Positions 48,269 to 63,855 of a stretch of 64,000 nucleotides of DNA are shown piece by piece. The translations under genes and the position numbers were made by a program. The stretch comes from Peribacillus asahii. Lineage in GTDB: Bacteria > Bacillota > Bacilli > Bacillales > DSM-1321. The stretch covers positions 3,396,001-3,460,000 of the forward strand of contig NZ_CP026095.1 of the NCBI RefSeq assembly GCF_004006295.1, written 5' to 3'. The notes beneath the pieces were generated by a model that was not told the origin of the DNA, searched no databases, and saw nothing but the letters and a program-made list of their open reading frames with translations. How positions within the stretch are numbered: the first letter of the stretch is position 1; every line of letters starts with the position of its first letter.

Positions 48269-48288
48269 TTGACCGCTAAATAATAAAG

Positions 48289-48330
48289 AAGAACCTTATG
48301 AGAATAAATTCACTATTCCCAAAGGTTCTT
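48289..48330. terminator. Bidirectional terminator, copy 1 of a duplicated hairpin
   Basis: AAGAACCTT / AAGGTTCTT arms with an inner pairing (GGGAATA / TATTCTC) lie between two convergent genes. The same hairpin recurs at 50916-50957 behind the intact imm3 gene. Confidence 0.88.
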
Positions 48331-48335
48331 CATTT

Positions 48336-48428
48336 TTAATCTCTATTGTCTGTATTAGGCTCATAATCTACTTCAACATGATTGAGCCCCTCTAATACTT
48401 CTTTAATTCTTTTAGATAAGTTCTCTAT
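48336..48428 (-). pseudogene. Duplicated 3' fragment of the imm3 immunity gene
   Basis: Bases 48336-48428 are nearly identical to the last about 30 codons and stop of the imm3 gene at 50963-51055, encoding the tail LNHVEVDYEPNTDNRD. The match continues through the terminator (48289-48330 vs 50916-50957), about 150 bases in all. There is no upstream imm3 sequence; the fragment is joined out of frame to the end of the 48412-48846 gene, which takes its stop codon from it. This is a recombination scar. Confidence 0.88.
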
Positions 48429-48846
48429 TTTGAAGATATAGTATACTAATTCCTGCGTCACTGGATCTTTGATCATACCACTGCTTGATTTTCCCCCACT
48501 CAAACACATTTTCCGATAAGATTCCCTCAGGATAGCCTATTTGTTCTGTTAGCCATTCTCCATGTTGAGATAGTTTTTCTTCGTAGTCCCATTCGTTAAT
48601 GGATGGATCACTAACCTTTAATCGTATTCCTTGTATATTATTATTTTCAAATGAAATTCTAACAGCAAACTTTTTACTCCCCAATTGTATAGGTTTTAAA
48701 GATCCCACTGTCGCTTTACCATTTTGTCTTTTCCTCGCCTCAAGACTAGTATTTATGGTTAGAAATTTTTCAAAAACAGTCAATTTGGTATCTTTACTAA
48801 CTTCAATACCTTCTACTATCAATTTTCCTTCTCTTAAATTACTCAT
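48412..48846 (-). CDS. Putative orphan immunity protein of unrecognised family
   Basis: 144-residue soluble protein with acidic, Trp-containing surface motifs (INEWDYEEKLSQHGEWL, FEWGKIKQWYDQ) and no membrane segment. I start it at ATG 48844-48846 (MSNLREG), with GGGG 8 bases upstream; the frame is open 14 codons further but that part is read from an IS-type hairpin. The last five codons and stop come from the imm3 tail copy, so its natural C-terminus may be altered. It directly follows the relic of an LXG toxin, hence the immunity call, which is positional inference. Confidence 0.6.
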   Translation of the reverse strand: MSNLREGKLIVEGIEVSKDTKLTVFEKFLTINTSLEARKRQNGKATVGSLKPIQLGSKKFAVRISFENNNIQGIRLKVSDPSINEWDYEEKLSQHGEWLTEQIGYPEGILSENVFEWGKIKQWYDQRSSDAGISILYLQNRELI

Positions 48847-48865
48847 TAGCGAATCCCCATTTCTA

Positions 48866-48919
48866 TTGAACTCCCCCCACCTCCTCATTGGGCTATGTTC
48901 CCATTCCTTGAGGTGGGAG
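48866..48919 (-). mobile_element. IS200/IS605-like right-end hairpin remnant
   Basis: Minus strand shows nested pairings: outer CTCCCACCTC with GAGGTGGG...GAG, inner ATGGG / CCCAT-like (TGGG-AACATAG-CCCA), then AGTTCAA. This resembles the right end of IS1341-type IS200/IS605 elements, which is also the 3' part of TnpB guide RNA. No transposase or tnpB sequence is next to it, so it is either a scar or a non-autonomous derivative. Identification is from memory of such ends. Confidence 0.55.
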
Positions 48920-49145
48920 TCTTCTGTCGAGAAATGATAAATCAGCAGTTTCTATCGCCTTATTAATTTCATCTTTGGTTAATTTAGAATTATCTAATTT
49001 AATAACATGAGGGTCTTCTGAAATCTCTCCAAAAGTCTTACAAATAGTTTCATGCATGTATTTTTCCTTTTTTGTAGAATAGATAAGGATTTTGATATTT
49101 TATAAGCATCAAAGGTATGATTTGCGGCGTGATGCCTTTGGCTGA
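48893..49145 (-). pseudogene. Relic of an LXG toxin gene
   Basis: Reading the minus strand, 49069-49145 matches the intact LXG toxin near 52255-52330 (ANHTFDAYKISKSLSILQK vs ANHALDAYKTSKSLSILQK) with a frameshift just before it. A second shift at a run of six A leads to an open frame to TAG 48893-48895 of about 57 codons (KKEKYMHETICKTFGE... KLTKDEINKAIETADLSFLD), likely the 3' end of a toxin domain, whose last ten codons overlap the IS-like hairpin. The LXG domain and most of the toxin are gone. The family of the lost toxin is not recognised. Confidence 0.75.
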
Positions 49146-49485
49146 GGAACCTTTTTACATTACCTATTGTTTATTGCCACGAGCTTGTACAGTCTCTTTT
49201 GTTTGTTAACTATACCATGATGATACTACCTTCACGGGGTATGAATTTCATGTACGCATTATTCATGTTGGCCAAAGTATAAATTTCCCGAAAAAAAACA
49301 CCTGATGCTCTAAAAAGCAACCAGATGTTTTATAGCTAGTATATAAATTAATTCATTACTGGTCCTATCTTTAAACCAACGAGCATGTTAATTTCCTTAG
49401 CAGAACACGGTTATATAACTCCATGATAGCACAACCCTCATGAGTTCTGAATTCAAATCCGAGCATACCTTTAACTGTAAACAGT
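49146..49485. other. Non-coding remnant sequence with a degenerate repeat
   Basis: No gene is open here. Two degenerate copies of a CCATGATGATACTA... motif (from about 49213 and 49419) recur a third time at about 50202; in translation they give related short peptides (for instance RTHEGCAIMELYN and IAHNDSIIMECYDN), suggesting fragments of one lost gene. A hairpin-forming AACATCTGGTTGCTTTTT-type sequence at about 49298-49332 (CACCTGATGCT / AGCAACCAGATG) may be an old terminator. Confidence 0.4.
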
Positions 49486-49941
49486 TTAAAGGTTATTATT
49501 TTTTACCTCTTCAAACCACTCATCAGCAATATGATCCGCCGTTTTAATATCATCATTTGTATATACTAAATCATACTTGTATTCAGCTTTAAAGTTGCCA
49601 CTCTTAACATCATATATTAATTTCATCTCCGTTGGCATGTCTCTTTCATATTCTTTGCACAATACTTTTACTTTTTTGATGTCTTCACATATTATGCGCA
49701 ATACCATAGACTGTCGTTTTGTAGACACATCATATCTTTCTTCTCCATTCTCCAATGCATCATTCACCTTATGACACTTTACATATTGATTGTTAATTAA
49801 ATAAAAGAACTTACCCGATATCATACCTTCTTCACATGAAGCATAGACGTATACTTTATCAGCTCTATCTTCAACATATTCCATACATATGGAAATCATA
49901 TCGGCTTGCAATTCACTAAATCTATCTTCAAATTCTTTCAT
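49486..49941 (-). CDS. yezG: YezG-family immunity protein (DUF600)
   Basis: 151-residue cytosolic protein. The core FSELQADMISICMEYVEDRADKVYVYAS, the MPTEMKLIYDVKSGNF segment and C-terminal KTADHIADEWFEEV match YezG/DUF600 immunity proteins, which in Bacillus neutralise LXG toxins with DNA/RNA non-specific endonuclease domains (e.g. YeeF). Its own toxin survives only as a fragment immediately upstream (49963-50180). The gene is intact; preserved immunity without toxin is typical of orphan immunity arrays. Confidence 0.88.
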   Translation of the reverse strand: MKEFEDRFSELQADMISICMEYVEDRADKVYVYASCEEGMISGKFFYLINNQYVKCHKVNDALENGEERYDVSTKRQSMVLRIICEDIKKVKVLCKEYERDMPTEMKLIYDVKSGNFKAEYKYDLVYTNDDIKTADHIADEWFEEVKNNNL

Positions 49942-49962
49942 ACTACTTTTTCACTCCTTAGA

Positions 49963-50180
49963 TTAATTTTCAATAACTTCAAAGCCCAGCTCATCGTCAA
50001 TAGAATAATTAACTATAAACTTCTTTGGACGCATATCATTTCCAGAATAAATTATATTAACATCACCGGTTACTTGTTTAGGAGGTGTTTCTTTCAAAAC
50101 TGTAGCCATTTTCTTCAATCTTCTTATCCGCCTTTGAATGATCTTCTAGCTCAGCCGATAATTGAAATAAACCCAGTCGC
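49963..50180 (-). pseudogene. 3' relic of an LXG toxin with an endonuclease domain
   Basis: An ATG-initiated 48-codon frame (50109 to stop TAA 49963-49965) reads VNIIYSGNDMRPKKFIVNYS followed by IDDELGFEVIEN. This looks like the C-terminal strand pair of the DNA/RNA non-specific endonuclease fold (Endonuclea_NS_2). A further matching piece in another frame (FQLSAELEDHSKADKKIE) precedes it, so the relic is frameshifted. It ends about 20 bases before yezG, the immunity family that usually goes with this nuclease. The LXG part is lost. Confidence 0.65.
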
Positions 50181-50325
50181 CTCCATTTTATTATCATAAC
50201 ACTCCATGATGATACTATCATTATGAGCTATCAATTTTTCATTCACACTTTCAATTATAGTAAATCTCTTATAAATATCACTATTCTGCTGAGGGATTAT
50301 AATCAATCTCTGCATTTTTTAGTCC

Positions 50326-50341
50326 CTCTATTACTCTATTA
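50326..50341 (-). repeat. 8-bp tandem duplication truncating the imm3 paralogue
   Basis: CTCTATTA occurs twice in direct succession (50326-50333, 50334-50341, plus strand). Removing one copy restores the frame through to TAG at about 50281 and adds 14 residues that align with the intact Imm3 C-terminus. Confidence 0.88.
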
Positions 50342-50645
50342 CTTTATTTATTCGTTTCGATAAATCATTTATCTCTTCTAACGTTAATTCACCTTCTACT
50401 TCTTTTGGGTCAAACATACTTAATCTCTTTGTTATACCTTCAATATAACCAATATAAACCTTATCATGTGACAGTAATATTTCACCTATAGCAGTATCAA
50501 CAATAAAGTCTTCTACTTCCCCAAGATTTACATACTCATTAAACGTTCTTGCTATCGCATATTCATATCCTCTATTTAGAATTAAAAAGTCATTATAGTC
50601 CTCATTAATTACCTCAAATAATTCATTGTACTCCCAATCTTCCAC
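50331..50645 (-). CDS. Imm3-type immunity protein, C-terminally truncated paralogue
   Basis: 104-residue paralogue of the immunity protein at 50963 (shared YNELFEV, NRGYxYAIARxFNE, DTAIGEILLSHDKVYIGY). Starts at GTG 50643-50645 with AGGAGAG six bases upstream. A tandem duplication of 8 bases (50326-50341) creates an early TAA; without it the frame would continue GLKNAEIDYNPSAE, aligning with the tail of the intact Imm3. The core fold is complete, so the protein may still work. It pairs positionally with the toxin relic at 50673-50905. Confidence 0.85.
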   Translation of the reverse strand: MEDWEYNELFEVINEDYNDFLILNRGYEYAIARTFNEYVNLGEVEDFIVDTAIGEILLSHDKVYIGYIEGITKRLSMFDPKEVEGELTLEEINDLSKRINKVIE

Positions 50646-50672
50646 CGAAATCTCTCCTATAAAATTTAACTT

Positions 50673-50905
50673 TTATGGTTTAATTCTTTCTCTTTTCAGA
50701 TGTGCTCTTGTGTAATGCTTTCCATACTCTACTTCGGCTATTTCTCGGGGTACATTCGACACTACCTCAAAACCATTTTCAAACCCTTCGCGTTTCGCTT
50801 CAAATAGTTTTTCTTAGTAATTAGGTCAACGCCATCTGTTGCTGTAAACGACTCATAATGATATCAATATAACCTTTTTGATCTAGTGCTATTTTGAAAC
50901 CTGTG
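50673..50905 (-). pseudogene. 3' relic of a polymorphic toxin domain
   Basis: A frame without start (about 50813 to stop 50673-50675) reads EKLFEAKREGFENGFEVVSN then PREIAEVEYGKHYTRAHLK and ends RERIKP. Upstream sequence in another frame (ESFTATDGVDLITKK) appears to continue the same domain, so it is frameshifted. The stop is 27 bases before the imm3 paralogue. The family is not recognised. The last codons (RIKP plus stop context) resemble those of the intact LXG toxin at 51354, which may have favoured recombination. Confidence 0.65.
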
Positions 50906-50915
50906 AATAATAAAA

Positions 50916-50957
50916 AAGAACCTTACGAGAATAAATTCACTATTCCCAAAGGTTCTT
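50916..50957 (-). terminator. Terminator of the LXG-imm3 module, copy 2 of the duplicated hairpin
   Basis: AAGAACCTT / AAGGTTCTT outer arms with an inner pairing, directly behind the imm3 stop; nearly identical to 48289-48330. Confidence 0.85.
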
Positions 50958-50962
50958 CATTT

Positions 50963-51328
50963 TTAATCTCTATTGTCTGTATTAGGCTCATAATCTACTT
51001 CAACATGATTGAGCCCCTCTAATACTTCTTTAATTCTTTTAGATAAATCCTCTATCTCTACGGCTGTCAATTCTCCTGACGCTTCTTTAGGGCTGAAACT
51101 ATTTAATTTATTTGTTATAGCTTCAAGATATCCGTTAAATACTTTATCATGCGTAATCAATATTTCACCAATAGCGGTATAAACAATAAAATCCTCTATA
51201 TCACCCATATCAAGATTCTCATTAAAGGCCCTAGCAATAGCATATCTATATCCTCTATTTTTATTTAAATACTCTTGATAATCCTCCTGGATAACTTCAA
51301 ATAATTCATTATAAGTAAAGTGCTCCAT
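50963..51328 (-). CDS. Imm3-family immunity protein for the adjacent LXG deaminase toxin
   Basis: 121-residue acidic cytosolic protein starting at ATG 51326-51328 with GGAGG 7 bases upstream. The pattern YNELFEVIQEDYQEY, NRGYRYAIARAFNE, DFIVYTAIGEILITHDKVFNGY matches the Imm3 immunity family, known from polymorphic toxin loci with BURPS668_1122-type deaminases. It starts 25 bases after the toxin stop, the expected toxin-immunity arrangement. Confidence 0.85.
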   Translation of the reverse strand: MEHFTYNELFEVIQEDYQEYLNKNRGYRYAIARAFNENLDMGDIEDFIVYTAIGEILITHDKVFNGYLEAITNKLNSFSPKEASGELTAVEIEDLSKRIKEVLEGLNHVEVDYEPNTDNRD

Positions 51329-51353
51329 CAAAAAACCTCCGATAATTAATTAT

Positions 51354-53309
51354 TTATGGTTTTATTCTATTCCCATTATTATGAATAACCTCTAAATCAA
51401 TCTTTGGATATTTACTAGCAAATTCCGCAATTACTTTATTACAACTAGAGCAAGTATCAAGTTCTGTAAATAACTTGATTTTTCCAGTTGCATCTCTATT
51501 ATCTCCAAGCATAGAGGCTACATCATTCAAAATCTTATACTCGGTATCAGAGTCTCTCATATAAGATTCTCCAAATTTATCAGGAGCTTCCGTTGCTTTA
51601 AATATTGGTTCATTAGGCTGAAGAGAAATATCAGGGACTCTCTCTTTTAAGCTTCCTGACAATTCATCTATTTTGCTACTAGCATAAAATTCTTTCTTAG
51701 TTAGACCACTAACTTCCACTTCAGCCAAGGCAAAATTCCCACCTGTTTTATATTTACTCGTTAAAGCTCCTCTAAGTTCTTTTACTCTTCCTATTATATG
51801 AGCTTCCTTCGTTTCATCAATTATTCTTGTAGGATACAGCTTAACTACTTCCTCTAAACCCTTTCCAGCTCCATCATTTTTAGCCGAAAATCTCTGCAAT
51901 GCATCACTAATAGTCTGATTTTCTACATAAACGTGCTTGAAAGTAACTCCGTTCGCGTCTAAAGCTTGAACTCTAAAGCCGGTTGGAGCCTTAATTTGTC
52001 CAACTTTTGTCCCCAGTTCTTTTAACATATTTTGAACATTATGAACCTTATTTTGTACATATTCCTTGCTGTATGGGAAGTTCGTTCCTGCTTTGTCTAC
52101 AAGTTTCGCTGCTCCCGCAACCCCGACAATCCCCAGTGCCGTCATCACGCTTTGCTGGCGCTGTTCATCCGTCAGCTCATTCCCAAACATATCCTTACCA
52201 AGCATCGCTTCGCTTAATCCGTTAGCTGCGACTAAGCCGTAGATGCCCATCTCGCTTTTTTGTAGAATAGATAGAGACTTGGATGTCTTGTAGGCATCGA
52301 GAGCATGATTCGCGGCATCCATTCCTTTAGCTGTTGAATAGATGGCTTTTCCGCCTTTGAACGCTCTCCCAGCCCAGCCGACGACGGGGATAAAGCCTGC
52401 TGCGGCCATGGCTCCAGCTGTGATTCGTTCGGCTTCGGATAGTTTTCGGCCTGTTACGGGGTCAACACCTTCTACGGCTCTCTTAGTATCATAATAGCCG
52501 GTGATTTCACCTGTAAAGGTTTTTGTCGCCTCCCACGCTTTTTCGTACCATGGGCGGTTTTCCTGGGCTTCGATTTCTTTGGCCAGCTCTCTTGCTTCAT
52601 GCTGATCTTTTTTGAATGTTAAATATTGATTCGTTTGCTTCGCTACATCGTCTTTCAGCTGATAGATTTCACTCGTCTTATACGCGTTAGCATTAAAGTA
52701 GAGAGGGGATATGTTCTCTCCCTTTCTCGTCGACTCCATCAGTTGGTTGAATAGAGCATAGACATAGGTTTCTGTTTGTTCAGATAACACATATTCCGTC
52801 GTTAAATTTTCATCTAGCTCATTGACTTTTTGAATCGTTTCGTTGCGTTCTTTTTCGGCCTCGTTGATGTTTTCATCGAATTCTTCCTTAGAGAACACCT
52901 GGAGGGAAATTAAATCTTCAATGTCGTTAAAGATTTTCTGGAGATCTTCTTGTTGCTGGGTGACCATTTCTTTCGCTAACTGATTGGATTGGGACAAATT
53001 TTCTTCTAGGAAAGGTACTTTTACAACGGTGTCTCCTGATAGTTGAACATCTTCTGTCATTCCTTGAATACCTTCGAAAAAAGCCACCTGCTGGTCAATG
53101 AGTTGAATCCATACATCCGCTACATCGATTTGCGCTTGGTAAAAGCCTTTGATGGCTTCTGCTCCATTGCCGAGAAAATTCTCATTATCTACAATCTTAG
53201 CAAACTCTGTTTTTAATTTCTGAAATTGCTCTTTTAATGTTTTATATTGTTCAGCACGTTCTTTAACAGAATGAACCAACGTGTTGGCTTCATATATTTT
53301 TATTTCCAT
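51354..53309 (-). CDS. LXG-domain T7SS effector with C-terminal deaminase-like toxin
   Basis: 651-residue effector predicted to be exported by the adjacent T7SS. N-terminal LXG domain (about 1-205, opening MEIKIYEANTLVHSVKERAE), pre-toxin TG-like region 260-400 (EITGYYDTKRAVEGVDPVTG, hydrophobic AGFIPVVGWAGRAFKGGKA), then a toxin domain from about 440. The C-terminus has DTEYKIL (Asp588, Glu590) and FTELDTCSSC (Cys620, Cys623) followed by ASKYPKIDLEVI, the layout of BURPS668_1122-family zinc deaminases acting on nucleic acids; Asp takes the place of the more common His ligand. Co-transcribed with two partner genes upstream and imm3 downstream. The deaminase call is by motif; substrate unknown. 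Confidence 0.85.
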   Translation of the reverse strand: MEIKIYEANTLVHSVKERAEQYKTLKEQFQKLKTEFAKIVDNENFLGNGAEAIKGFYQAQIDVADVWIQLIDQQVAFFEGIQGMTEDVQLSGDTVVKVPFLEENLSQSNQLAKEMVTQQQEDLQKIFNDIEDLISLQVFSKEEFDENINEAEKERNETIQKVNELDENLTTEYVLSEQTETYVYALFNQLMESTRKGENISPLYFNANAYKTSEIYQLKDDVAKQTNQYLTFKKDQHEARELAKEIEAQENRPWYEKAWEATKTFTGEITGYYDTKRAVEGVDPVTGRKLSEAERITAGAMAAAGFIPVVGWAGRAFKGGKAIYSTAKGMDAANHALDAYKTSKSLSILQKSEMGIYGLVAANGLSEAMLGKDMFGNELTDEQRQQSVMTALGIVGVAGAAKLVDKAGTNFPYSKEYVQNKVHNVQNMLKELGTKVGQIKAPTGFRVQALDANGVTFKHVYVENQTISDALQRFSAKNDGAGKGLEEVVKLYPTRIIDETKEAHIIGRVKELRGALTSKYKTGGNFALAEVEVSGLTKKEFYASSKIDELSGSLKERVPDISLQPNEPIFKATEAPDKFGESYMRDSDTEYKILNDVASMLGDNRDATGKIKLFTELDTCSSCNKVIAEFASKYPKIDLEVIHNNGNRIKP

Positions 53310-53330
53310 TGTTCATAAAGCCCCTTTACA

Positions 53331-53594
53331 TTATTTAACGATTGCTTCATCTTGTTTTTTCAAAATGTCTACATTCGCATGTGTATCTTCCACGTTTTTT
53401 TGAACAGCCTGCATATACTGTATAACCATTTTTTGTAGATTCTCTTCTCTTTGAAGCCATTCTTTTGTAAATTTAAGCTGATTCTGTCCAAGTTCTGTTT
53501 CCGAAGGACTCGGGAGATGTAATTCACTAAGCGCTTGTTTCACATTGTTTAATTGTTGAATCACTTCTGAATAATCCAGTTTGATCTTTTGCAT
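53331..53594 (-). CDS. YwqI-like (DUF5344) LXG partner protein
   Basis: 87-residue helical protein with heptad-like spacing (YSEVIQQLNNVKQALSELHLP; MVIQYMQAVQKNVEDTHANVDIL), WXG100-like in size. Relatives sit between ywqH and the LXG toxin gene ywqJ in B. subtilis and act as targeting or chaperone partners of the LXG domain. Its start overlaps the stop of the preceding gene. Confidence 0.8.
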   Translation of the reverse strand: MQKIKLDYSEVIQQLNNVKQALSELHLPSPSETELGQNQLKFTKEWLQREENLQKMVIQYMQAVQKNVEDTHANVDILKKQDEAIVK

Positions 53595-54022
53595 TAAAAC
53601 AGCCTCCCTTTCAAATCATTGATTTTACTTTCTAATTCAGCGAATACTTCTTCTCCTTTCCCTATCAATTGACTCGCTTCATTAGCCAATCCGCTTGTGA
53701 AATCTAAAACGCTTCGTTCTATCTGTAATAGATTGATTTTATTTTCAATACTTTGCACGTAGTCATCATACTCATCATTGATGATAGTTACCATCCCTGT
53801 ATGAGCTTTCTCCCTGAATTTATCAAAAGAGTCTGATCGGCTCCCTTTCCATGAATCACCTAGTTGAGGTTCTAGAATTTTCGGAATTTCTTGCAGGCTA
53901 AGATTTTGCTCTTGTTTTATTTTCCTTTTTGCTTGCACCAAGCGGGAAATTTTTTCATCTATAGCTGCTGATTGACTGGAAATCTCATTGTAAATTTGAT
54001 TAAGTGTATCTGAAAAACTCAT
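53594..54022 (-). CDS. YwqH-like (DUF5082) LXG partner protein
   Basis: 142-residue coiled-coil protein (about 1-45 and 95-140) with a central LGDSWKGSRSDSFDKF motif that contains the W-x-G turn of WXG100-like proteins. Same place and size as B. subtilis YwqH upstream of an LXG toxin. GGAGGTG precedes the ATG. First gene of the effector module, behind a terminator, so the module probably has its own promoter in 54023-54089. Confidence 0.8.
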   Translation of the reverse strand: MSFSDTLNQIYNEISSQSAAIDEKISRLVQAKRKIKQEQNLSLQEIPKILEPQLGDSWKGSRSDSFDKFREKAHTGMVTIINDEYDDYVQSIENKINLLQIERSVLDFTSGLANEASQLIGKGEEVFAELESKINDLKGRLF

Positions 54023-54089
54023 ATTTACACCTCCTGTAAAGTGAAACTTCCATCAATGGGGGAAGAACGTAAAGGCATTCTTTAAAATA

Positions 54090-54136: not shown

Positions 54137-54625
54137 TCACTTCAATTGCTGGTTTCCTTGCACCATTTTAGGAATAAGCAAAACGAGTATTACCATCAGT
54201 CCAATGGCTAGTAAGCCAATTATAATCATTAACTGTATTTGCCGATTCGGAGGATGTTCACTTTTGTCTTTAAGCCGAAGATCCTCTGGTTTCTTATCCG
54301 AAAAAAGATTCATTTGTTCGGCTTTCTCAGCAAGGGTATGTTGAGCGTTTATCTCTCCAACGAATAACTGATTTAATATTTCTTCACTAGAATTAGACGT
54401 TGGAAGTTCAAACGTTAATTCCTTTTGCTGTTCCGGAATGGATTGCTTATTTTCATATAGTGCCTTTTCATGTAAATACTCTGTATTTTCCTTGAACTCT
54501 TTTTTTTCATACTCATTCGGTGTTAGTGTTTCAAGATCAGGTGCAGCTGCCTCTGTCACATTTGCGTTTATAAAGAGACTCATAGGAAGCAACAAAGCAA
54601 ATATCATCCTTCGATTAAGCTTCAT
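54137..54625 (-). CDS. yueC: T7SS accessory membrane protein YueC/EssA
   Basis: 162-residue protein with an N-terminal signal (MIFALLLPMSLFINANVTEAA), an acidic extracytoplasmic stretch and a C-terminal membrane helix (LMIIIGLLAIGLMVILVLLI). Matches EssA/YueC in size, topology and position. Overlaps the end of yueB by 11 bases. Confidence 0.85.
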   Translation of the reverse strand: MKLNRRMIFALLLPMSLFINANVTEAAAPDLETLTPNEYEKKEFKENTEYLHEKALYENKQSIPEQQKELTFELPTSNSSEEILNQLFVGEINAQHTLAEKAEQMNLFSDKKPEDLRLKDKSEHPPNRQIQLMIIIGLLAIGLMVILVLLIPKMVQGNQQLK

Positions 54626-57377
54626 ATGACTCTTCCTCTTCGATACTTCTTGCTCGTTTATTCTTCCAGATTTGTATAGCTAACGGAATAACGGTCAGAA
54701 CGACAATGATGCCCATTAACACAGTAACAGCTGGAATAAATAACGATTCAGGTTCATATTGAATCGACATATATACTTTTGACATTGGATCTTCATAATC
54801 AATATTTGGTGCTATTAAAGCAAGTAATGGACTAACAAAGAACACCACTAGCGCCACACTCACCAGCCACCCTAATAAGTTTCCAAACGTAAAGCTAACA
54901 AGAACGATAGTAGAAACAGCAGTAAGAAGAAGAACTGTCATAATCGTCCATTCAATTGCTCGCACTTCTTCTAATGGATAGATATTTAAGCCATATATGC
55001 TAATAATTAAACCAACAATTAAATTTAGCAGCGCAAACACAGCCACTTGGACAAGTTTAGGTGCCCCTTTGAAATAATGACTGAAATATCCAATTAATAA
55101 ACTAGCAATTAGCACAATGACCAGGATGATAACAGGCGGTATATTCTTTTCTTCCTTCTTCGACGTGCTATCTCCGCTAATTTGAAGCGGTTGGGCTAAA
55201 TGATCATAAACCGGCCCATTCTTTTGGCCATCTACATACGCATTTCCTAAAACATTAAAAATATCATCTCGGAACATTTTGGTTGTATCCACATTTGCTG
55301 CCCATTTATTATTAAGCGTACTGGCATCTTGTTGTACATTCTCAACCTTTGATTGCAGGTCATCTGTATACGTAACAATTTGATCTTGACTGTCTCCAAG
55401 AGAATTCACTAAATCATGAATCATAGCCATTTCTTGCGCAAGACCCTTCTGATGAGTAACGACGGACTGTCCATCCACTTCTTCCGTTGAAGCCGGAGCA
55501 TCAGCAGAAATGAATTGAACATGATTCATTATTTGTTCGGAGCTGTCTTCAAGTGAAGATAAATCTTCCATAATAGTAGAATGTTGTTCTTCAACCTCTT
55601 CACTGTATCCTGCTAAAAACGTATTCAATTGCTCTTGTAAAGTCGTTATTTGTCCTGTTGCTGATGGCATATCTGTAGAAAGCTCATTCCACATAGTTTG
55701 TTCTTGCTCGTTTATCCCAAGAATTGGACTGATTCTTTCCTGTACAGCTTGAAGATTTTTATTACTTGCATTCAAGCTATCTTGTAACAATGTTTCTAAT
55801 TGAACAAGTCCAGCATAATAATTCAAAATAGCATTTGAAGATCCACCTTCAATCTCTTTGGAAAATACAGTGGATAACACATCCTTTTTCTCCTGAGTTA
55901 AAACAGGAGAAGCAAGAACCGCTTGCTCTTTCTTCTTAATCTCCTCAATTAATTCATCCGTTTGGTCAACTTTGGAATTAGCATTATCTAATAAATCTTT
56001 AATCTTTGCATTTAGTTCATCCACAATTGGCTGTAATGGATTTTCCTCAGCGTCCATCGCAGCAAGCTGCTGTTCCACCTTAGACATTCGCTCTGCCAAC
56101 AGCGGTATACTGTTAATCGTAGCAGTTACCTGCTCTGGTTGCGGTTCAGCAATCGCTTCTAAGTTCGTCTTTATATCATTCAGCTCTTTAGCAATCGACT
56201 GTAATTCTTCTCGTTCTTTTTGCGTGTTAACAGTTCCCGCCGGCGATTGTTCAGTCGAAGTTTGAGCAGTGTCCACCGCTCCCTGATTATCTGGTTGTTG
56301 AGACCCATTCGTTAATTCCGATTTTAAAGTCTGAAGCTTGTTCACTGCCTGATTCAGAGATTCTGTCTCTCGTTCTCTAAAGTAAGCAATCAACTCTTCC
56401 TTTTGACGATTCACTTGATCTAATCGAATAGCAGACAGATTATTCATCTTTTCATTATTTTCTTCTAACTGTTTTCCCATCTCTTCTAGTTCAAGGGACA
56501 GCTGTCCGCCTTGTTGATTAAAAGAATTGATAGAATCCGTCAAGGTCGGAATCTGATTGGAAGCAAACGCCTCAATTGTTCCAAGGCTTTCCTCTTGCAA
56601 TTGCTGCAATATTTGCTGCTGAGCTTCCTGATATTCTTTATATTTTTCTACAAATTCAACAAATGCTGTTAAGTTCTGTTCAAATTGATTAATATTATCG
56701 ATTCTGTCCGGAGCCGCTTTATCTAGTGATTTCGTTGCTGTTTGAATACTTTCAAGCATGTTTTTTTGCTGCTCAATCTCACCAGCCAGACTTTTCGAAC
56801 TTGGACTATAAAATGCTAACATCGCCTTTTGGAAATCAATTTCTTTCTGTACAATCTCATCAAAATGCCCTCGAACACCTTCTAGATCTTGTGAAATGTA
56901 CATCCAATACAACGTAGATATTTTTCCATTAACACGATTAGTTGCACGCTCCATTTCACGCAAAACTTTCTCACGATTCACGACATTTAATTGTTCTTGA
57001 ACATCATACTCAAATTTGGCTTTATCTGGTTGTTTATCTTCGTACGTCATAATATTACTCGAAAAATCGGAAGGAATATAAACGACTGCATCGTACTTTG
57101 TGTTTTTAAGACCATTGACCGCAGCGCTTCGGCTCATTGCCACCCATTGATAATTGGAATCCTCTTCAAGAATGGTCATAATTTGCGTCCCAAAATCTAT
57201 CGCTTTATTTTCCTTCTCTGCCTTTATATCTTCATTTACTACGGCGATTGTACGCGTTGCGTTTTCCCTAACTTGGAAAGGGTGATCACCAATAGAACCA
57301 AAGAAGACTGCCGGGGTGGCAAGAATAAGAATTATAACTAAAATCATTTTCATCATATATCTTGTTTTACTTATCAT
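54615..57377 (-). CDS. yueB: T7SS membrane component YueB/EsaA (SPP1-receptor family)
   Basis: 920-residue ABC-2/Pip-like protein. One N-terminal membrane helix (MILVIILILATPAVFFG), a very long extracellular coiled-coil region (about 35-700, rich in Gln/Glu/Asn), and about five C-terminal helices (VIILVIVLIASLLIGY, LVQVAVFALLNLIVGL, ...). This is the topology of YueB, which projects through the wall and is the SPP1 phage receptor in B. subtilis. Start overlaps the yukB stop by 4 bases. Confidence 0.93.
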   Translation of the reverse strand: MISKTRYMMKMILVIILILATPAVFFGSIGDHPFQVRENATRTIAVVNEDIKAEKENKAIDFGTQIMTILEEDSNYQWVAMSRSAAVNGLKNTKYDAVVYIPSDFSSNIMTYEDKQPDKAKFEYDVQEQLNVVNREKVLREMERATNRVNGKISTLYWMYISQDLEGVRGHFDEIVQKEIDFQKAMLAFYSPSSKSLAGEIEQQKNMLESIQTATKSLDKAAPDRIDNINQFEQNLTAFVEFVEKYKEYQEAQQQILQQLQEESLGTIEAFASNQIPTLTDSINSFNQQGGQLSLELEEMGKQLEENNEKMNNLSAIRLDQVNRQKEELIAYFRERETESLNQAVNKLQTLKSELTNGSQQPDNQGAVDTAQTSTEQSPAGTVNTQKEREELQSIAKELNDIKTNLEAIAEPQPEQVTATINSIPLLAERMSKVEQQLAAMDAEENPLQPIVDELNAKIKDLLDNANSKVDQTDELIEEIKKKEQAVLASPVLTQEKKDVLSTVFSKEIEGGSSNAILNYYAGLVQLETLLQDSLNASNKNLQAVQERISPILGINEQEQTMWNELSTDMPSATGQITTLQEQLNTFLAGYSEEVEEQHSTIMEDLSSLEDSSEQIMNHVQFISADAPASTEEVDGQSVVTHQKGLAQEMAMIHDLVNSLGDSQDQIVTYTDDLQSKVENVQQDASTLNNKWAANVDTTKMFRDDIFNVLGNAYVDGQKNGPVYDHLAQPLQISGDSTSKKEEKNIPPVIILVIVLIASLLIGYFSHYFKGAPKLVQVAVFALLNLIVGLIISIYGLNIYPLEEVRAIEWTIMTVLLLTAVSTIVLVSFTFGNLLGWLVSVALVVFFVSPLLALIAPNIDYEDPMSKVYMSIQYEPESLFIPAVTVLMGIIVVLTVIPLAIQIWKNKRARSIEEEESYEA

Positions 57378-60300
57378 AAATAAACCCTCGTTTCAGTAGA
57401 GCATAATGGAATTTGTATTTTCGTCTCCTTGCCATTAATGACATAATAGCCATACCCCGGATAGATTTCCTCTTCTTTTCGCTCATACGATAAGGTAAAT
57501 AACGTTTGTTCTGATTTTTTCATTAATACAACAGCTTGACGAATCTGCTTAATTTCAACGGTTAATGAATCATACCCTTTTGTTAAGTCATTATTACTTC
57601 CAGAAACAAATACGTGGAAACCAAGGTGGCTGTAATTTTTCATAAGCTTTGAAATTCGATCCTGCAACAGACTGTCAATAGATTGAGAGAATCGTGAATA
57701 CCCATCAATAACGAGTACAATTGGCGAATATTCCGTTCTTACAGGACCTTGTTGAATGTTTGCGAGATAATCCTGTTCTCTTCCCGCTAACAGATGTTCA
57801 ATATGACTCAACCAATCTGTAATTTGCTCTTTCGTTTCTAAATACGTGACAGCTTGCTCTGATGAATAACTCGATAATCCTCGATCAAATGAATCAAATA
57901 TTCCTACTGATTCTGTTCCCTGATTGATTAAAGAATTTACTAATACCTTTAGAACGTTGGTCTTCCCTTTTTGCGCTGGACCAAGAACGATACAATGTTT
58001 ATTTTTCGCAAAATCGATATAAACCGGTTGAACGGACTCTTCGTCAAGACCAATAGGGAATTTGCCAATCGTCTGAGCTTTCCCTATATATGATGTAAAG
58101 TTCAACATCGTTAATTCAGATGGCAGCATCGGAACCGGTTTAGGCCCATTCAAGCCTTCATATTTTGCTTTCAACAACTGAACATCTTGTTTGATTGATT
58201 CCAGTACTTCATAATCATCCTTACCTTCCGTTGGCAAAAATACTTGCGAAAAATAGGACTCATCTTTCCTAATAATCGCTCTGCCTGGAATCGGTTCAGG
58301 TGTAAAAGGAATTCTCCCTAATATAGAGTAAGCTTCACCGCTGTCCATTAAGTAATGAACAATTTTCGTCTTCAAATTATTCATAAGAGGTTGACGAACT
58401 GCATTAATCCTTGTAGCCGTAAAAATCATATAAATCCCTAACGACTGACCATCCCTTGCAAATTGTGTAATTTGTGCTTCAAGTTCCTGCATTTCTTCTT
58501 TTATCAAATCAAAATTATCAATCGCAATAAAAAGAAGCGGTAGTTTCTCATCACTTAATTGATTGAACATTTTAATACTGTTTACTTCCTGCTGTTGGAA
58601 TAGTTGCTTTCTTTGTGCGATTTCACCCTTTAATAGATTCATAAACTTCTCAATCTTTCGCCCCTCATCCATTAAGAAAAAGTCAGCTGTATGTGGAAGC
58701 TGCTTTAATGGAAGAAGAGTACCATTTCCAAAATCAAACAAGTAATAATACATTTCTTCAGGACTAAATCTTTCCGCCATACTAAGTAAAAGAGTAATGA
58801 CCGTATAGGACTTCCCGTATCCTGAAGAGCCAAAAATCCCTATATTCCCATCATCAAGCACATCATAATGAAAGGCGGTTTGACTTTGCTTCTCAGGTTC
58901 ATCTACTAAGGCGAAACTAATTTCATTTCTATTAGATGCTCGATAAGATTTTCTAGATATCCAATGAGCAAGAGGCGGCAGCCATGGACTTGGCAGTTTC
59001 TCAATCCCCATTTCAGCTTGTATGCCCTCTATTTTTTCTACAATTGCTTCTATTTCGGTTTTTTTGTTTGTTTTCTTTCTATCATGGGTCGTAACATTCG
59101 ATAATGGAATTAAACCAAGATCCGTTACGAGAGCAATTTCATCTTCCGATTGGGAAGTATCTTCGAGATACGGTGAACCGCTCCATGCTGACTGGAATAG
59201 CTCATACACTTCATTATTGCCTACTTGTAAATAACCTCTTCCTGTCTCAGTAATCGTTGCAGCATCGCCGTTTTTAAGAATTTCTCTACTGTCGTTGGCA
59301 TCCTGCACTTTCAAGGCAACTTTAAACCGTGCGTTACTCCAAATTTGTTCATCAATGACTCCACCAGGCTTTTGTGTGGCTAGAATTAAATGCACGCCTA
59401 AACTTCGTCCGATTCGAGCGGCGCTGACAAGCTCTCTAATAAAGTCAGGCTCTTCACTTTTTAACTCTGCAAATTCATCGGATATAAGAAATAAATGTGG
59501 TAATGGATCTTTTGCTCTACCTTGTTTATACAAATCCGTATAATCATCAATATGATTTACCTGATACTCATCAAACAAACGTTGTCTCTTCTTTAATTCA
59601 CTTTTAATAGAAGCAAGTGCTCGTTCACTGAAGTTTTTACTTCCTTCAATATTCGTAATCGTTCCAAGTAGATGCGGCATGTTTTTAAAAGGCTGCGCCA
59701 TTCCGCCGCCTTTATAGTCGATAAGCAAAAAGGCAACTTCATGTGGATGAAAATGAACAGCTAATGACAAGATATACGTTTGTAAAAACTCACTTTTCCC
59801 CGATCCTGTCGTTCCAGCAAGAAGTCCATGCGGCCCGTGTGCTTTTTCATGCAAGTTCAGTTCTACAACATCTTTTTTTCCCTTTAAACCGATTGGAGCA
59901 GCTAGAGACTTGGCTGATTCATTCGTCAGCCAGTTTTGCTTAATTGGTAATTGAGCTACATCTTGCATATGCATCATTTGTAAAAAAGAAACACTGTTAG
60001 GAATAGAATTCGTCACTCCTACTTGGTGATTCAATGTTTTAAGTAGACGAGCGAATTTTTCATTGCCTTTTTGTTGATGAGCATCGAGTCTAAATGGAAT
60101 CGACACAGCTTTTTTATCTTGGATTAAAATATCTCCCTCTTCATCATTGATATATCTGACGAGAGTATGAATATGCTCTGTTAAACTTTCTTTTGCTTCC
60201 GCAGCAAATATAACGGATAGTCCAAGGGATGGATGTTCCCCTTCCAAATACTCTAGGATGACATGATCCGTTATCAATTGCTGATTGGCAATAATAAACA

Positions 60301-61849
60301 CAAGATGCGGGGAAAATCTTGTTTTCTCTTTATCCTCCTGAGAATCACGTTCCCGCAGCATTTCGTAGATGGATGAAAGCAATTGATCCCGGGTTTTCTC
60401 ATTATATATAAGCCCTTTTGCATGAACATGAGGCAATTGAAAATGAGGAAGCCATTTCATCCATTCCCAATCGCTATATTCTTCTTCATCAAAAATAAAG
60501 ACCATCCGTACATCATGATAACTATGAAAAAAAGCGAGCTGTCCAATAATCTGATGAAGCTCATTTTTCACAACATTTTCTTTACCAATTAAACCGATTG
60601 TCCCTTTTGATAAATCGGCAACAACCGGAACATCTTCTATTTCCCGATACACATTCTCCATTTGCTGAGATTGTTCTAATAGATCATCCATCTCTCGATT
60701 CGCCATATCTCCAGAATTAATCGAGATTTGATAGCTTGCCGGCACTGTCCCTTTTCCAATTCTAAATTGGAGAAGGTCATAGCTATCTAATGAACGTTCC
60801 CACAGACGATCCGATAGTTGCTCTGTCAAGTACTTCATTTTTTCGAATGATGGAAAATGAAAATGCAGTACCTCTTTTTGCTTTTCCGATAGTTCTAATA
60901 GCTCATTTCTTTTATTCTCTAAATAATGAGTGTAAATTCGGCGTCTCCGTTCTTTCCGCTTTTTTTGAGTTCCTTTATCTTTAAAGAATTGAACAGTTGA
61001 TGTGACAAGCGTAGTCATGAACATAACCATCGAAATAATAATAAAGATCCCTCTAGGTTGGATAAGTGCAACAATCCCCATAACAATTAGCATAATGAGC
61101 GGAGGCATAATAATAAGCCATAGGCCTCTATTGGAATCTTCGGACTCTTGAACTGGAAAGGATAAAAAAACCTTTTCTTTCGGAAGTTCATACACCATCC
61201 TTGGTGTTCGCCGATACATCGGGTATTTCTTGCTCATAACAGATTGTGGCTGTTGTATGATCGGAAGCTCGGTCTCATAATCTCCTATACTCTTTATCTC
61301 TAACACATCATCTTCAAGAAGCTGAAAGGTCATAAAAGGACACAATAGCAAGTCTCCCACTTTCACTTCTGTCGCCTTTGGAACCCTCTTTCCATTCAAA
61401 TAGAGATTGGACATCCCAGGCTCAATAACCCAGCCATTTCCCACCTTAAATAGAGTAAAGGCGTTCTTTGTTTGCTCTATAGGAAAAGAATTTGAATGAA
61501 AGATCTCTGCCTTATTGTCAAATGATGAATATGTAATTTCAGACTGATAGCCTAAATAATAGGTTTTTACCGTTTCATCGGATACCGTTAGAAAAATAGT
61601 TAATAGATGATCTTGTTCTTTTAATTGAAAGGAATGATTTTCATTTGCCCTGCCAATCACGCTCCCTTTTCTCCATACAGAGAATCCTGATTCCTCTACT
61701 TCGATGGTAATTGGTCCCTCTGTAAATGGATAGTGTCTTAATGTAATCATTTGTTTGGCTTCTGGACCAACAGTTAAGGAATGCTGTTGACCTTTGCTCA
61801 AGGGCACCCTCTGGTAATATTGATCATAAAACAACCAGAGATTACTCAT
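57374..61849 (-). CDS. yukB: T7SS FtsK/SpoIIIE-type ATPase YukB/EssC
   Basis: 1491-residue motor of the T7SS. N-terminal two FHA-like beta domains (about 1-200), two membrane helices near 240-290 (LWLIIMPPLIMLIVMGIVALI), then three P-loop ATPase domains: GTTGSGKS (about 680), GSSGYGKS (about 1005) and GPAQKGKT (about 1295). The first has LLIDYKGGGMAQPF and LISDEFAEL. It is a single uninterrupted gene, unlike the split yukA/yukB sometimes annotated. Central to substrate recognition. Confidence 0.95.
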   Translation of the reverse strand: MSNLWLFYDQYYQRVPLSKGQQHSLTVGPEAKQMITLRHYPFTEGPITIEVEESGFSVWRKGSVIGRANENHSFQLKEQDHLLTIFLTVSDETVKTYYLGYQSEITYSSFDNKAEIFHSNSFPIEQTKNAFTLFKVGNGWVIEPGMSNLYLNGKRVPKATEVKVGDLLLCPFMTFQLLEDDVLEIKSIGDYETELPIIQQPQSVMSKKYPMYRRTPRMVYELPKEKVFLSFPVQESEDSNRGLWLIIMPPLIMLIVMGIVALIQPRGIFIIISMVMFMTTLVTSTVQFFKDKGTQKKRKERRRRIYTHYLENKRNELLELSEKQKEVLHFHFPSFEKMKYLTEQLSDRLWERSLDSYDLLQFRIGKGTVPASYQISINSGDMANREMDDLLEQSQQMENVYREIEDVPVVADLSKGTIGLIGKENVVKNELHQIIGQLAFFHSYHDVRMVFIFDEEEYSDWEWMKWLPHFQLPHVHAKGLIYNEKTRDQLLSSIYEMLRERDSQEDKEKTRFSPHLVFIIANQQLITDHVILEYLEGEHPSLGLSVIFAAEAKESLTEHIHTLVRYINDEEGDILIQDKKAVSIPFRLDAHQQKGNEKFARLLKTLNHQVGVTNSIPNSVSFLQMMHMQDVAQLPIKQNWLTNESAKSLAAPIGLKGKKDVVELNLHEKAHGPHGLLAGTTGSGKSEFLQTYILSLAVHFHPHEVAFLLIDYKGGGMAQPFKNMPHLLGTITNIEGSKNFSERALASIKSELKKRQRLFDEYQVNHIDDYTDLYKQGRAKDPLPHLFLISDEFAELKSEEPDFIRELVSAARIGRSLGVHLILATQKPGGVIDEQIWSNARFKVALKVQDANDSREILKNGDAATITETGRGYLQVGNNEVYELFQSAWSGSPYLEDTSQSEDEIALVTDLGLIPLSNVTTHDRKKTNKKTEIEAIVEKIEGIQAEMGIEKLPSPWLPPLAHWISRKSYRASNRNEISFALVDEPEKQSQTAFHYDVLDDGNIGIFGSSGYGKSYTVITLLLSMAERFSPEEMYYYLFDFGNGTLLPLKQLPHTADFFLMDEGRKIEKFMNLLKGEIAQRKQLFQQQEVNSIKMFNQLSDEKLPLLFIAIDNFDLIKEEMQELEAQITQFARDGQSLGIYMIFTATRINAVRQPLMNNLKTKIVHYLMDSGEAYSILGRIPFTPEPIPGRAIIRKDESYFSQVFLPTEGKDDYEVLESIKQDVQLLKAKYEGLNGPKPVPMLPSELTMLNFTSYIGKAQTIGKFPIGLDEESVQPVYIDFAKNKHCIVLGPAQKGKTNVLKVLVNSLINQGTESVGIFDSFDRGLSSYSSEQAVTYLETKEQITDWLSHIEHLLAGREQDYLANIQQGPVRTEYSPIVLVIDGYSRFSQSIDSLLQDRISKLMKNYSHLGFHVFVSGSNNDLTKGYDSLTVEIKQIRQAVVLMKKSEQTLFTLSYERKEEEIYPGYGYYVINGKETKIQIPLCSTETRVYL

Positions 61850-61873
61850 GCTATCATCTCCTGTAATATCTAC

Positions 61874-63196
61874 CTAATTTGAATTTGATTCAGATGACTC
61901 CGTATTCTTTGTTTGCGATTCTTTTGATTCTTTAGGTTTTTGAGAACTTTTCTCTTGTTGAATCTGCTCATCCTTCACTTTTGCTTCAGCTTCTTTTTTT
62001 GCCTGTTCTTCAGCTTCCCTTTTTTCTTGTTCTTCTTCCCATTCTCGTTCATATTCATCTAATTCAGACTGAATCTCTTTCAGCTTCTGTTGTTTTTCTT
62101 CTGCCTTTAACTCATCATCAGCCTTTACTTCCTTTTTGTATTGATATAGCCCATATATAATGATCGATATATCTTCTAGAGAATAGGCAATATCAAGAGC
62201 TTCCTTCGCATTACCTCTTCCAATTTGAATCCAATAATTATAATATTGTGGATCAGTTTGTAATGTAATAATCTGTTGCAAAGTATCCTTTTGGTAGTCC
62301 TTTAACTCTAAATCCTTACTAATCATGATATACGACTGTGCTAATTGATATTGAACAACATTTGGCATATCTTCAACCTCGTAGTCCAACAAAGACTTAA
62401 TTACTTCACTATATTGATTCTTCAAGAAAGCTTCCTGACTATTAATGAATGCTGACTGTTTTGGTTGAGCGAGTACGAGGGTATACAAACTAAATAGAAG
62501 AGCAGGAACCAACGCAATAAGAAGACTGAGAGCTGTGTAACGAGTCACATTCCACTTTTTCTTTGTAACCGTGATTTCCTCCTTTGCCCTCTGCTCTAAG
62601 ACGGTCAAATGCTCTCGAATCCTTTCTTGGAGTTCATTTATATTACTAGCAGCCAGTATTTTGGCTGCAATAGGGGAAAGTTCAAGCGTTTGATATAAAT
62701 ATAAATATTGAAAAAAACTATACTTTTTATCGACTATTTCCGCCACCGTTGCTCTTAATTCTTGTAATAGTCTTTCTTCATCCTGTTCATAAGGCGGCAA
62801 GCTCTCCTTTACCCCATAGTGAAGAAAATATGGGGTTAGACTTTCATCAACTACAATATTTTCTGGACATACAATAACATGTAATCGATTCAAGGAATGA
62901 TTTTCAACCTTTTTAATAAGCTGCGAAGCAAAAATCCATCGGCTCTTCTCATCTTTCTTTTTTAATTGGGTAAAAGGCAGATAGCTTGAGGGTGTTTCAA
63001 TATTGAGTTTTAATTCAGCCTCTGTTAATGTTATTTCCTTCTTGATGGAAGAATCACTATACTTAAGCATTTCCATTTCTAGTGCATCATCTAACCTAAT
63101 TTTTTCTCTTTGGAAAATGATCTGAACCGTATTTTTTTCTTTTTTTATGACCGCTTCAAGCTGCTTTTCAAGATACGATTGTTTCTTTTCTGACAT
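61874..63196 (-). CDS. yukC: T7SS component YukC/EssB
   Basis: 440-residue single-pass membrane protein. N-terminal cytoplasmic pseudokinase-like domain (1-215), a membrane helix near 220-245 (ALSLLIALVPALLFSLYTLVLA), an extracytoplasmic helical domain, and an unusually long Glu/Lys/Gln-rich tail from about 365 (EREWEEEQEKREAEEQAKKE). Ends 25 bases before yukB. Confidence 0.92.
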   Translation of the reverse strand: MSEKKQSYLEKQLEAVIKKEKNTVQIIFQREKIRLDDALEMEMLKYSDSSIKKEITLTEAELKLNIETPSSYLPFTQLKKKDEKSRWIFASQLIKKVENHSLNRLHVIVCPENIVVDESLTPYFLHYGVKESLPPYEQDEERLLQELRATVAEIVDKKYSFFQYLYLYQTLELSPIAAKILAASNINELQERIREHLTVLEQRAKEEITVTKKKWNVTRYTALSLLIALVPALLFSLYTLVLAQPKQSAFINSQEAFLKNQYSEVIKSLLDYEVEDMPNVVQYQLAQSYIMISKDLELKDYQKDTLQQIITLQTDPQYYNYWIQIGRGNAKEALDIAYSLEDISIIIYGLYQYKKEVKADDELKAEEKQQKLKEIQSELDEYEREWEEEQEKREAEEQAKKEAEAKVKDEQIQQEKSSQKPKESKESQTKNTESSESNSN

Positions 63197-63210
63197 GTTC
63201 GGATACTCCC

Positions 63211-63450
63211 TTATATAATTTCAAGACGGTCTCCTGTAGTAATTCCACGATCTATTAACCTTTCTGTTCCTGAGAGGACAAGACGTTTGTTCGGTATCCG
63301 CACCCAATACCCTTCTCTAGGCGATTCAGAAATGGATTTGGCTTGCCAAACAATATCGATTACTTTTTTTACAGAGTGATAATCCGATAGGCGTAAATCA
63401 AAAACTTCATCGGTATAATGCTCTAAGTCTATCGTTATTTCAATATACAT
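63211..63450 (-). CDS. yukD: T7SS ubiquitin-like protein YukD/EsaB
   Basis: 79-residue ubiquitin-fold protein (MYIEITIDLEHYTDEVFDLRL ... LSGTERLIDRGITTGDRLEII) without C-terminal GG. Essential accessory of Firmicutes T7SS. Preceded by a hairpin, followed 14 bases later by yukC. Confidence 0.93.
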   Translation of the reverse strand: MYIEITIDLEHYTDEVFDLRLSDYHSVKKVIDIVWQAKSISESPREGYWVRIPNKRLVLSGTERLIDRGITTGDRLEII

Positions 63451-63465
63451 TTTTTCACCTCAAAA

Positions 63466-63503
63466 CGAAAAAGCGCCTTCCTCCAATAGAATGGGCGCTC
63501 TTC
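63466..63503 (-). terminator. Attenuator hairpin between yukE and yukD
   Basis: GAGCGCCC / AGGCGCTTTTT-type stem followed by TTTTTCGTTTT on the minus strand, 27 bases after yukE and before yukD. A partial terminator here would raise WXG100 substrate levels above those of the secretion machine. Confidence 0.78.
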
Positions 63504-63529
63504 CTTTACTTCATAGACTTCAGATGAAG

Positions 63530-63823
63530 TTAACCACGAATTTGACTTGCAATTTGATTGTCAGCATCTGCAAGAGCTTTACCCGTATTGCTAAGCTGAA
63601 CAGCGATATCTTCAAGCAATTGCTGCATTTGAATAAATGAAGGTTTTAATGCCTCGTATTGCTCGCCAAATGCTCTACTAGCTTCCCCTTCCCAAGCTCC
63701 TTCTAATTCTTTAATCATTGAATTTAGGCGGACAATTTGTTCCCCTACTTGACTGCTCTCACCATTGTAGCGGGTAGACATGCTTTCTAACTCTGCTGGT
63801 GTTACACGAATAATTCCTGACAT
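63530..63823 (-). CDS. yukE: WXG100 T7SS substrate YukE/EsxA
   Basis: 97-residue helix-turn-helix secreted protein. The WXG turn is WEG in LEGAWEGEASRAFGEQYEAL (near residue 42). Start MSGIIRVTPAELES at ATG 63821-63823 with GGAG 8 bases upstream. First gene of the secretion operon. Confidence 0.95.
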   Translation of the reverse strand: MSGIIRVTPAELESMSTRYNGESSQVGEQIVRLNSMIKELEGAWEGEASRAFGEQYEALKPSFIQMQQLLEDIAVQLSNTGKALADADNQIASQIRG

Positions 63824-63855
63824 ATACATCTCTCCTCTTCTTTGATAATATGTTA

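Follow-up and report, generated by a model that had tools for sequence, protein, structure and literature searches.

In Salmonella, Rhs loci combine a conserved 5' part with swapped 3' ends and carry orphans downstream. In the type VI secretion system (T6SS) of Vibrio cholerae, an effector is replaced by a new effector-immunity module, the old immunity genes persist as a 3' array, and homology-facilitated illegitimate recombination has been proposed for these arrays (PMC5361080). Enterococcus faecalis OG1RF carries LXG-less toxin fragments 3' of a full LXG gene, with front homology and with full-length relatives elsewhere (PMC7790226), and the type VIIb secretion system (T7SSb) loci of Listeria monocytogenes hold orphan immunity genes against the LXG toxins of other strains (PMC10327511). 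In Staphylococcus aureus and Streptococcus, the copy number of tandem esaG or tipC immunity genes is altered by recombination between paralogues (PMC9484751). Toxin replacement with retained immunity is already a published mechanism in the V. cholerae T6SS, and Enterococcus is known to have orphan LXG modules. A literature search for Peribacillus together with LXG found no paper in the collection searched. Herein, we analyzed an LXG toxin locus in a 64,000-nucleotide stretch of Peribacillus asahii (contig NZ_CP026095.1, positions 3,396,001 to 3,460,000), called the window below and used for all coordinates; its host genome comprises 4.89 Mb in 2 contigs. The locus is very probably a displacement array of an antibacterial T7SSb LXG toxin, in which old immunity genes have been retained.

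Toxin stubs and immunity genes behind the resident toxin

The array lies on the minus strand, as do all of its features, and is ordered as toxin, Imm3-A, T1, Imm3-B, T2, YezG, hairpin-bearing relic DNA, T3, a gene of 144 amino acids (aa), and R2. The resident toxin gene (51354..53309, 651 aa) is intact, with the LXG domain at residues 4-201, the PT-TG pre-toxin domain at 256-321 and a BURPS668_1122-type deaminase at 509-645, and small partner genes lie upstream of it. Its immunity gene, Imm3-A (50963..51331), matches Pfam PF14425 at 134.5 bits (cut-off 25). All orphans are located 3' of this single full-length LXG toxin, which has its own delivery domain, and the frames and coordinates listed in a first-pass annotation made from the sequence hold in this respect. 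That annotation described three toxin relics, each beside an immunity gene. A fourth relic, R2 (48272..48428), closes the array at its right end; it is a 157-nucleotide (nt) remnant of an Imm3 gene end and the DNA behind it, 96% identical to the resident copy R1 (50899..51055), which covers approximately the last 30 codons of Imm3-A and the DNA that follows.

The pairs of T2 with YezG and of T3 with the 144-aa gene stood up to comparison. Stub T2 (49963..50145) is the end of an NS2 nuclease toxin (PF13930, Endonuclea_NS_2, 27.2 bits against a cut-off of 27), and a PT-TG coding piece of 64 nt at its front (50123..50186) is 72% identical to resident positions 52346-52409. It is followed by the orphan YezG-like immunity gene (49486..49941, 151 aa), whose PF04634 match is marginal (22.0 bits, cut-off 21.7); the assignment is strengthened by 83% identity to the gene beside an NS2-type LXG toxin in another genome (G029). 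Stub T3 (48893..49057) is an LXG toxin end of unassigned activity class, with a 62-nt LXG linker piece at its front (49067..49128) that is 79% identical to resident 52255-52316. Behind it lies the 144-aa orphan immunity gene (48412..48846; a longer start at 48888 gives a 158-aa form, which was the form scanned). T2 and T3 thus carry only PT-TG or linker pieces and toxin ends, and the delivery domain is absent from both. The remaining orphan, Imm3-B (50331..50645, 104 aa), matches PF14425 at 140.8 bits (cut-off 25) and is 67% identical at the protein level to the Imm3 beside the resident deaminase of P. asahii MA001. It follows stub T1 (50673..50899), which is frame-broken and, unlike T2 and T3, has no visible short homology to the resident gene.

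Full-length toxins ending like the stubs, for which the first-pass annotation had proposed to look, exist for T2 and T3. A protein search with the N-terminal part of the resident toxin returned full LXG toxins of close relatives with differing ends. P0002 from P. asahii is 97% identical in this part and carries the same deaminase as the window, and P0003 is a full LXG toxin with another deaminase. P0005, a 678-aa LXG-NS2 nuclease toxin of Peribacillus sp. Hz7, is 94% identical in the N-terminal part, and its last 47 residues (632-678) are 89% identical to T2; in G029 (locus L117), an LXG-NS2 toxin ends like T2 (78%) and is followed by the YezG gene mentioned above. For T3, P0004 of P. asahii (N-terminal part 95%) has a tail of this type at 76% identity, P0094 has a similar tail at 73%, and an LXG toxin of G006 (locus L098), whose tail is of the T3 type at 69%, has a relative (61-62%) of the 144-aa gene behind it. 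No full toxin ending like T1 was found: its protein matches are weak (E of about 1e-3 when composition is corrected for, and 1e-6 to 8e-8 when it is not) and sit in the middle of full-length LXG toxins, ahead of the NS2 nuclease domain, and only its last codons are like the end of a deaminase toxin gene.

The 144-aa gene, scanned in its 158-aa form, matched nothing in Pfam or NCBIfam at E 0.1, and its protein had no PDB match by sequence at E 1. Its predicted model, with a predicted local confidence score (pLDDT) of 72, bears a weak likeness to E. coli YdcD (E 0.034, template modeling score 0.47), which we take to be an Rhs-linked immunity protein. Among the 23 homologues listed, 9 are named, 8 from Peribacillus and one from a Bacillota bacterium. 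The predicted structure of the T3-type toxin P0004 had a pLDDT of 44.6 and was not used.

The displacement junction in P. asahii MA001

Over 14.5 kb, the left flank of the window shares 97.1% identity with P. asahii MA001 (G002), and comparing the locus between these strains, the check proposed at the outset, revealed Imm3-A orphaned behind a different deaminase-Imm3 pair. The resident toxin end of MA001 is another deaminase (66% nt identity in the C-terminal part), paired with an Imm3-B-type gene. Imm3-A stands behind this new pair, intact and 97.3% identical at the nt level, and its own toxin is gone. The MA001 cassette, consisting of deaminase B, Imm3-B and part of a YezG gene, abuts the Shine-Dalgarno sequence of Imm3-A, so that the join is preceded by the first approximately 48 codons of the YezG gene brought in by the new cassette. 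Because this YezG gene is cut, the MA001 joint appears to be the derived state, which is also compatible with a later regain of the toxin end in the window lineage.

Further differences between the two arrays are of another kind. The window stretch bearing Imm3-B is missing behind T1 in MA001, where the sequences are joined at a shared TGGARG, and we read this as a probable deletion. The 144-aa gene of the window corresponds to the body of one MA001 paralogue joined to the end of a second, with the intervening DNA missing. In both strains, the array lies between R1 and R2; 3 of 156 sites differ between the R1 copies and 10 of 157 between the R2 copies, R1 and R2 differ from each other at 7 to 14, and the duplication is therefore older than the split between the window and MA001. 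Four stretches of relic DNA show a divergence of 5.0-8.4%, and the 62-nt linker piece one of 21%.

Substitution counts between the window and MA001 argue for purifying selection on one or two of the kept immunity genes, with a caveat for YezG that is taken up below. The 144-aa orphan has 9.0 changes at 79.5 synonymous sites and 7.0 at 322.5 nonsynonymous sites, giving a ratio of nonsynonymous to synonymous divergence (dN/dS) of 0.18 (Fisher p 0.0011). For YezG, 20.5 changes at 77.5 synonymous and 22.5 at 375.5 nonsynonymous sites give 0.19 (p 1e-6), or 0.10 when a diverged patch is left out. The resident gene Imm3-A has 4 changes at 70.5 and 6 at 295.5 sites, respectively (dN/dS 0.35, p 0.11). 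Of the two orphans, the 144-aa gene is the cleaner case.

On the other side of the array, a gene for a DUF5344 small partner protein (53331..53594; PF17279, 80.8 bits), one for a YwqH-like small partner protein (53594..54022; PF16888, 45.2 bits) and the T7SSb machine genes (54137..63829) precede the toxin on the minus strand. The machine genes were recognized as frames and by order and size are presumably EssA-like, YueB/EsaA, YukBA/EssC, YukC/EssB, YukD and YukE. Across window positions 52000-64000, which hold this operon and the LXG N-terminal part, the difference to MA001 is 3-12% per 500-nt bin, and in the left flank it is mostly 1-4%. Because the operon bins diverge more than the left flank, exchange of the T7SSb/LXG locus by recombination is suggested. 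Beyond the right end of the array, a 195-aa gene on the plus strand (47681-48268), without a Pfam family over the cut-off, separates it from the next gene, presumably spoIIIAA. The matching interval in MA001 contains a 446-aa RRXRR-HNH gene, which we take to be IscB-like.

LXG loci across the genus

LXG relatives were found in 30 of the 36 genomes searched. Two counts of placement were made. The first was based on 84 typed rows; the rows excluded from it belong for the most part to a second LXG subfamily or are weak, and they include one relic-type row in the other LXG locus of the window genome (G000:C1:3107974). It contains 37 relic-type matches, of which 33 lie downstream of an LXG start on the same strand, none upstream and none on the opposite strand; for the other 4, the nearest 25 kb hold no LXG start. 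One of the 33 belongs to a resident gene that is split (G003), and in some cases several are parts of a single relic. Since the relic class was defined here by a match start at or beyond residue 190, this count cannot show that the LXG domain is absent, but a second count over 40 loci, made free of that cut, can. It found 36 non-resident matches to the toxin N-terminal part in 20 loci, all downstream on the same strand, and the smallest start residue was 195. The regions used for this count and for the ORF counts that follow extend further on the downstream side than on the upstream side.

Open reading frames (ORFs) were counted in 39 of these loci (L094 was dropped, its resident gene being split), with a cognate candidate available for 37 of the 39 toxins. 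Orphan immunity ORFs matching the cognate of another genome numbered 120 and occurred in 34 of the 39 loci. Their identity to cognates of other species reaches 100%, and 34 of the 120 are at least 90% identical to the cognate that they match. The better preservation of immunity genes claimed for the window extends to the genus: 103 of the 120 have at least 0.9 of the cognate length, whereas 8 of the 56 orphan toxin ORFs (23 loci) reach 0.9 of the toxin end. Adjoining stubs and immunity genes agree in type in 33 of 36 pairs, from which the window's and P. asahii's own pairs were excluded; the shuffled mean was 5.3 and the maximum 12, so that the pairing is beyond chance.

Three loci deserve separate mention. 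The largest array seen (L085, G024:C1:488001-508000) has 14 orphan immunity ORFs and one complete orphan toxin end behind one LXG toxin. The second LXG locus of the window genome (L104, G000:C1:3100001-3115000, minus strand) has a split resident toxin gene and three hairpins, and an ankyrin-repeat gene in the immunity position is followed by a toxin relic and a second similar gene. In G013 (L172, G013:C1:3850000-3869900), LXG genes of the second subfamily stand in tandem as near-identical units, two of them with a hairpin behind; a recent duplication is possible.

The reading that best joins the orphan state, the full-length relatives, the one junction, the constant direction and the better preservation of the immunity genes is displacement with retention. 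A new cassette of toxin end and immunity gene would recombine into the resident gene, with a left join inside the conserved coding stretch that separates the LXG domain from the toxin domain and an illegitimate right join downstream. The resident toxin end would be lost or cut to a stub, and the old immunity gene would remain just behind, as at the junction in MA001. The kept genes, presumably expressed from their own or read-through promoters, would come under purifying selection because they still protect against kin with full toxins, while the stubs decay. Later short deletions and recombination between paralogues, of the kind seen against MA001, would prune and shuffle the array.

Alternatively, the array may be kept mainly as a silent store of templates from which old toxin ends return, as proposed for orphan Rhs in Salmonella. 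The 8 complete toxin ends would suit this idea, as would the front homology to the resident gene that persists in 20 of 40 loci and a 278-nt linker copy retained at 88% in MA001. But all three toxin stubs of the window are broken, two of them keep just 62-64 nt of front homology at 72-79%, and across the genus 48 of the 56 orphan toxin ORFs fall short of a complete end; we consider a store of this sort improbable, though not negligible. The immunity genes could also survive as passive wreckage, through shortness and recent displacement and without benefit, in line with the truncation of Imm3-B and with the 17 of 120 orphan immunity ORFs below 0.9 of the cognate length. If loss went on at the rate that 103 intact immunity ORFs of 120 imply, however, about three quarters of the toxin ends, which are roughly twice as long, should by our estimate still be intact, far more than the 8 of 56 observed, and the dN/dS below 1 of the 144-aa gene likewise speaks against a lack of benefit, so that we regard passive survival as quite unlikely.

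Less likely still is that the tandem copies were born by duplication inside the locus rather than by import. R1 and R2 are paralogous, as are Imm3-A and Imm3-B, and whole LXG genes do stand in tandem in the second subfamily, as in G013 with a pair of copies identical across 2448 nt. Whole-gene copies should nevertheless begin before residue 195, and no non-resident match does so in the 40 loci of the subfamily to which the window belongs; moreover, Imm3, YezG and the 144-aa gene show no family in common, and orphans match cognates of other species at up to 100% identity.

Several observations weigh against displacement with retention or narrow what it can claim. That T1 is the former partner of Imm3-B was not borne out, its matches being weak and mid-protein, so that one of the three stub-immunity pairs first described is not supported. 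Imm3-B itself has lost its final 14 codons through a frameshift from an 8-bp tandem duplication. The synonymous divergence of YezG (dS 0.33) is well above that of most relic DNA, so that some of the change in this gene may have arrived by recombination. The ORFs upstream, together with opposite-strand ORFs downstream, yielded no immunity match, but this upstream control comprised 81.7 kb against the 391.6 kb searched downstream. Finally, a strict age order along the array is not supported: in the 15 loci with at least 2 orphan toxin ORFs, proximity does not go with greater completeness (net -3 of 72 pairs, one-sided p 0.63). When loci are pooled, completeness shows a weak trend with distance (Spearman -0.33, p 0.013, loci not being independent), and complete toxin ORFs are 6 of the 23 nearest and 2 of the 32 others, slightly different filters having given 55 ORFs in this analysis instead of 56. 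A clean age gradient was rejected, being absent within loci. Of the original proposal that successive replacement of toxin 3' ends pushed each old cassette downstream, displacement is thus borne out at the P. asahii junction, and position as a clean record of age is not.

The cassette-end hairpin and comparison with described systems

In many arrays, a terminator-like hairpin is located 3' of the immunity genes. The window has one copy, after YezG (49284..49332, minus strand; 42.6 bits, E 1.2e-7), matched by a hairpin model that happens to bear the label R1, like the repeat. The model was built from 43 copies, the window's included. The base pairs of the hairpin are kept in 94.2% of cells, and two-sided changes number 12, compared with 4.6 after shuffling. 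With at most 150 first-look candidates scored per genome, the scan of the 36 genomes gave 68 matches at E <= 1e-5, 30 in loci used for discovery and 38 outside them. Sixty-four of the 68 lie downstream of an LXG start, on the same strand and within 45 kb, a space of about 2% of the sequence. The remaining 4 are all in G011, three at a locus with an NS2 nuclease toxin (no LXG match) and YezG genes, and the fourth behind an ORF with a similar N-terminus. The five other LXG-negative genomes had no hairpin at E 1e-5, with one in G009 at 1.4e-4 and one in G032 at 0.009. An Rfam search gave no match at E 1, and among the titles listed in literature searches on hairpins (12 of 173 papers) and on LXG/YezG orphans (13), none describes a cassette-end hairpin. 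This conserved cassette-closing hairpin, found almost only in such arrays, is newly seen. Going by shape alone, the hairpin and the R1/R2 ends may terminate transcription; a simple terminator scan lists none of those in the window.

The hairpin also falls near limits of homology. In 50 hairpin regions, 84 in-register alignments extend more than 150 nt past the hairpin, 75 of them on one side only and 9 on both, 105 further alignments reach no more than 150 nt on either side, and 42 fall short of the hairpin. Seven loci have the flank behind it in common, including a convergent gene; of the 21 pairs that they form, 16 become homologous inside the hairpin's first 13 nt and 5 do so 63-130 nt ahead of it. 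It is conceivable, but we hold it only tentatively and rather doubt it, that Bacillaceae T7SS arrays are built of two-ended cassettes, with the PT-TG/linker block on the left and the conserved 48-nt hairpin on the right as the join, on a platform without its own integrase where the hairpin closes unrelated cassettes and marks the limits of homology. If the hairpin were the join site, this would explain how cassettes find their right-hand end. Any cassettes sharing a terminator would give the same pattern, however, the pairs are not independent, and the absence of the window copy from the terminator scan also counts against a special role.

A serine recombinase family with Resolvase and Recombinase domains, mostly broken, occurs in toxin arrays of Peribacillus and Priestia (L170 11304-12090; L171 7181-7375; L173 16036-16224; L078 11372-12393 and 15238-16008), and an IS110-type transposase gene stands behind it in L170 and L078. 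The genus search gave 6 rows of at least 49% identity; they fall on 5 sites, each of which its position places at a T7SS-type toxin locus, and the window genome had none of this family at E 1e-8. As a mover of the cassettes it was not adopted, considering that most copies are broken, that they are not always behind a hairpin, and that the window genome lacks one at this threshold.

Compared with the described systems, the window shares with Salmonella Rhs, as citing papers present it, the layout of 5' and 3' parts and the downstream orphans, with another delivery system. As in the V. cholerae T6SS arrays, sequential displacement would leave immunity genes in a 3' array; unlike that Gram-negative case, the toxins here are T7SSb LXG toxins, the stubs are often readable, and one junction has been caught (PMC5361080). 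The E. faecalis OG1RF orphan modules are likewise fragments without LXG, with front homology and full-length kin, and to these Peribacillus adds immunity genes that outlast their toxins, the scale of a genus and the cassette-end hairpin (PMC7790226). In Listeria, too, immunity to foreign LXG toxins is retained at the T7SS locus, but adjoining toxin stubs, which are the subject here, are not the subject of the available part of that report (PMC10327511). Recombination between paralogues, apparent in the 144-aa gene of the window, recalls esaG and tipC, whose arrays, going by the abstract, are of a single family, whereas the window array mixes three (PMC9484751). Beside these systems, the locus clearly exemplifies, for a Gram-positive bacterium, how a weapon is replaced while immunity to the old one is retained. 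One junction between near relatives and genus-wide data are available, and many orphan genes indicate the rival toxin that each should stop, a protection that can be tested directly.

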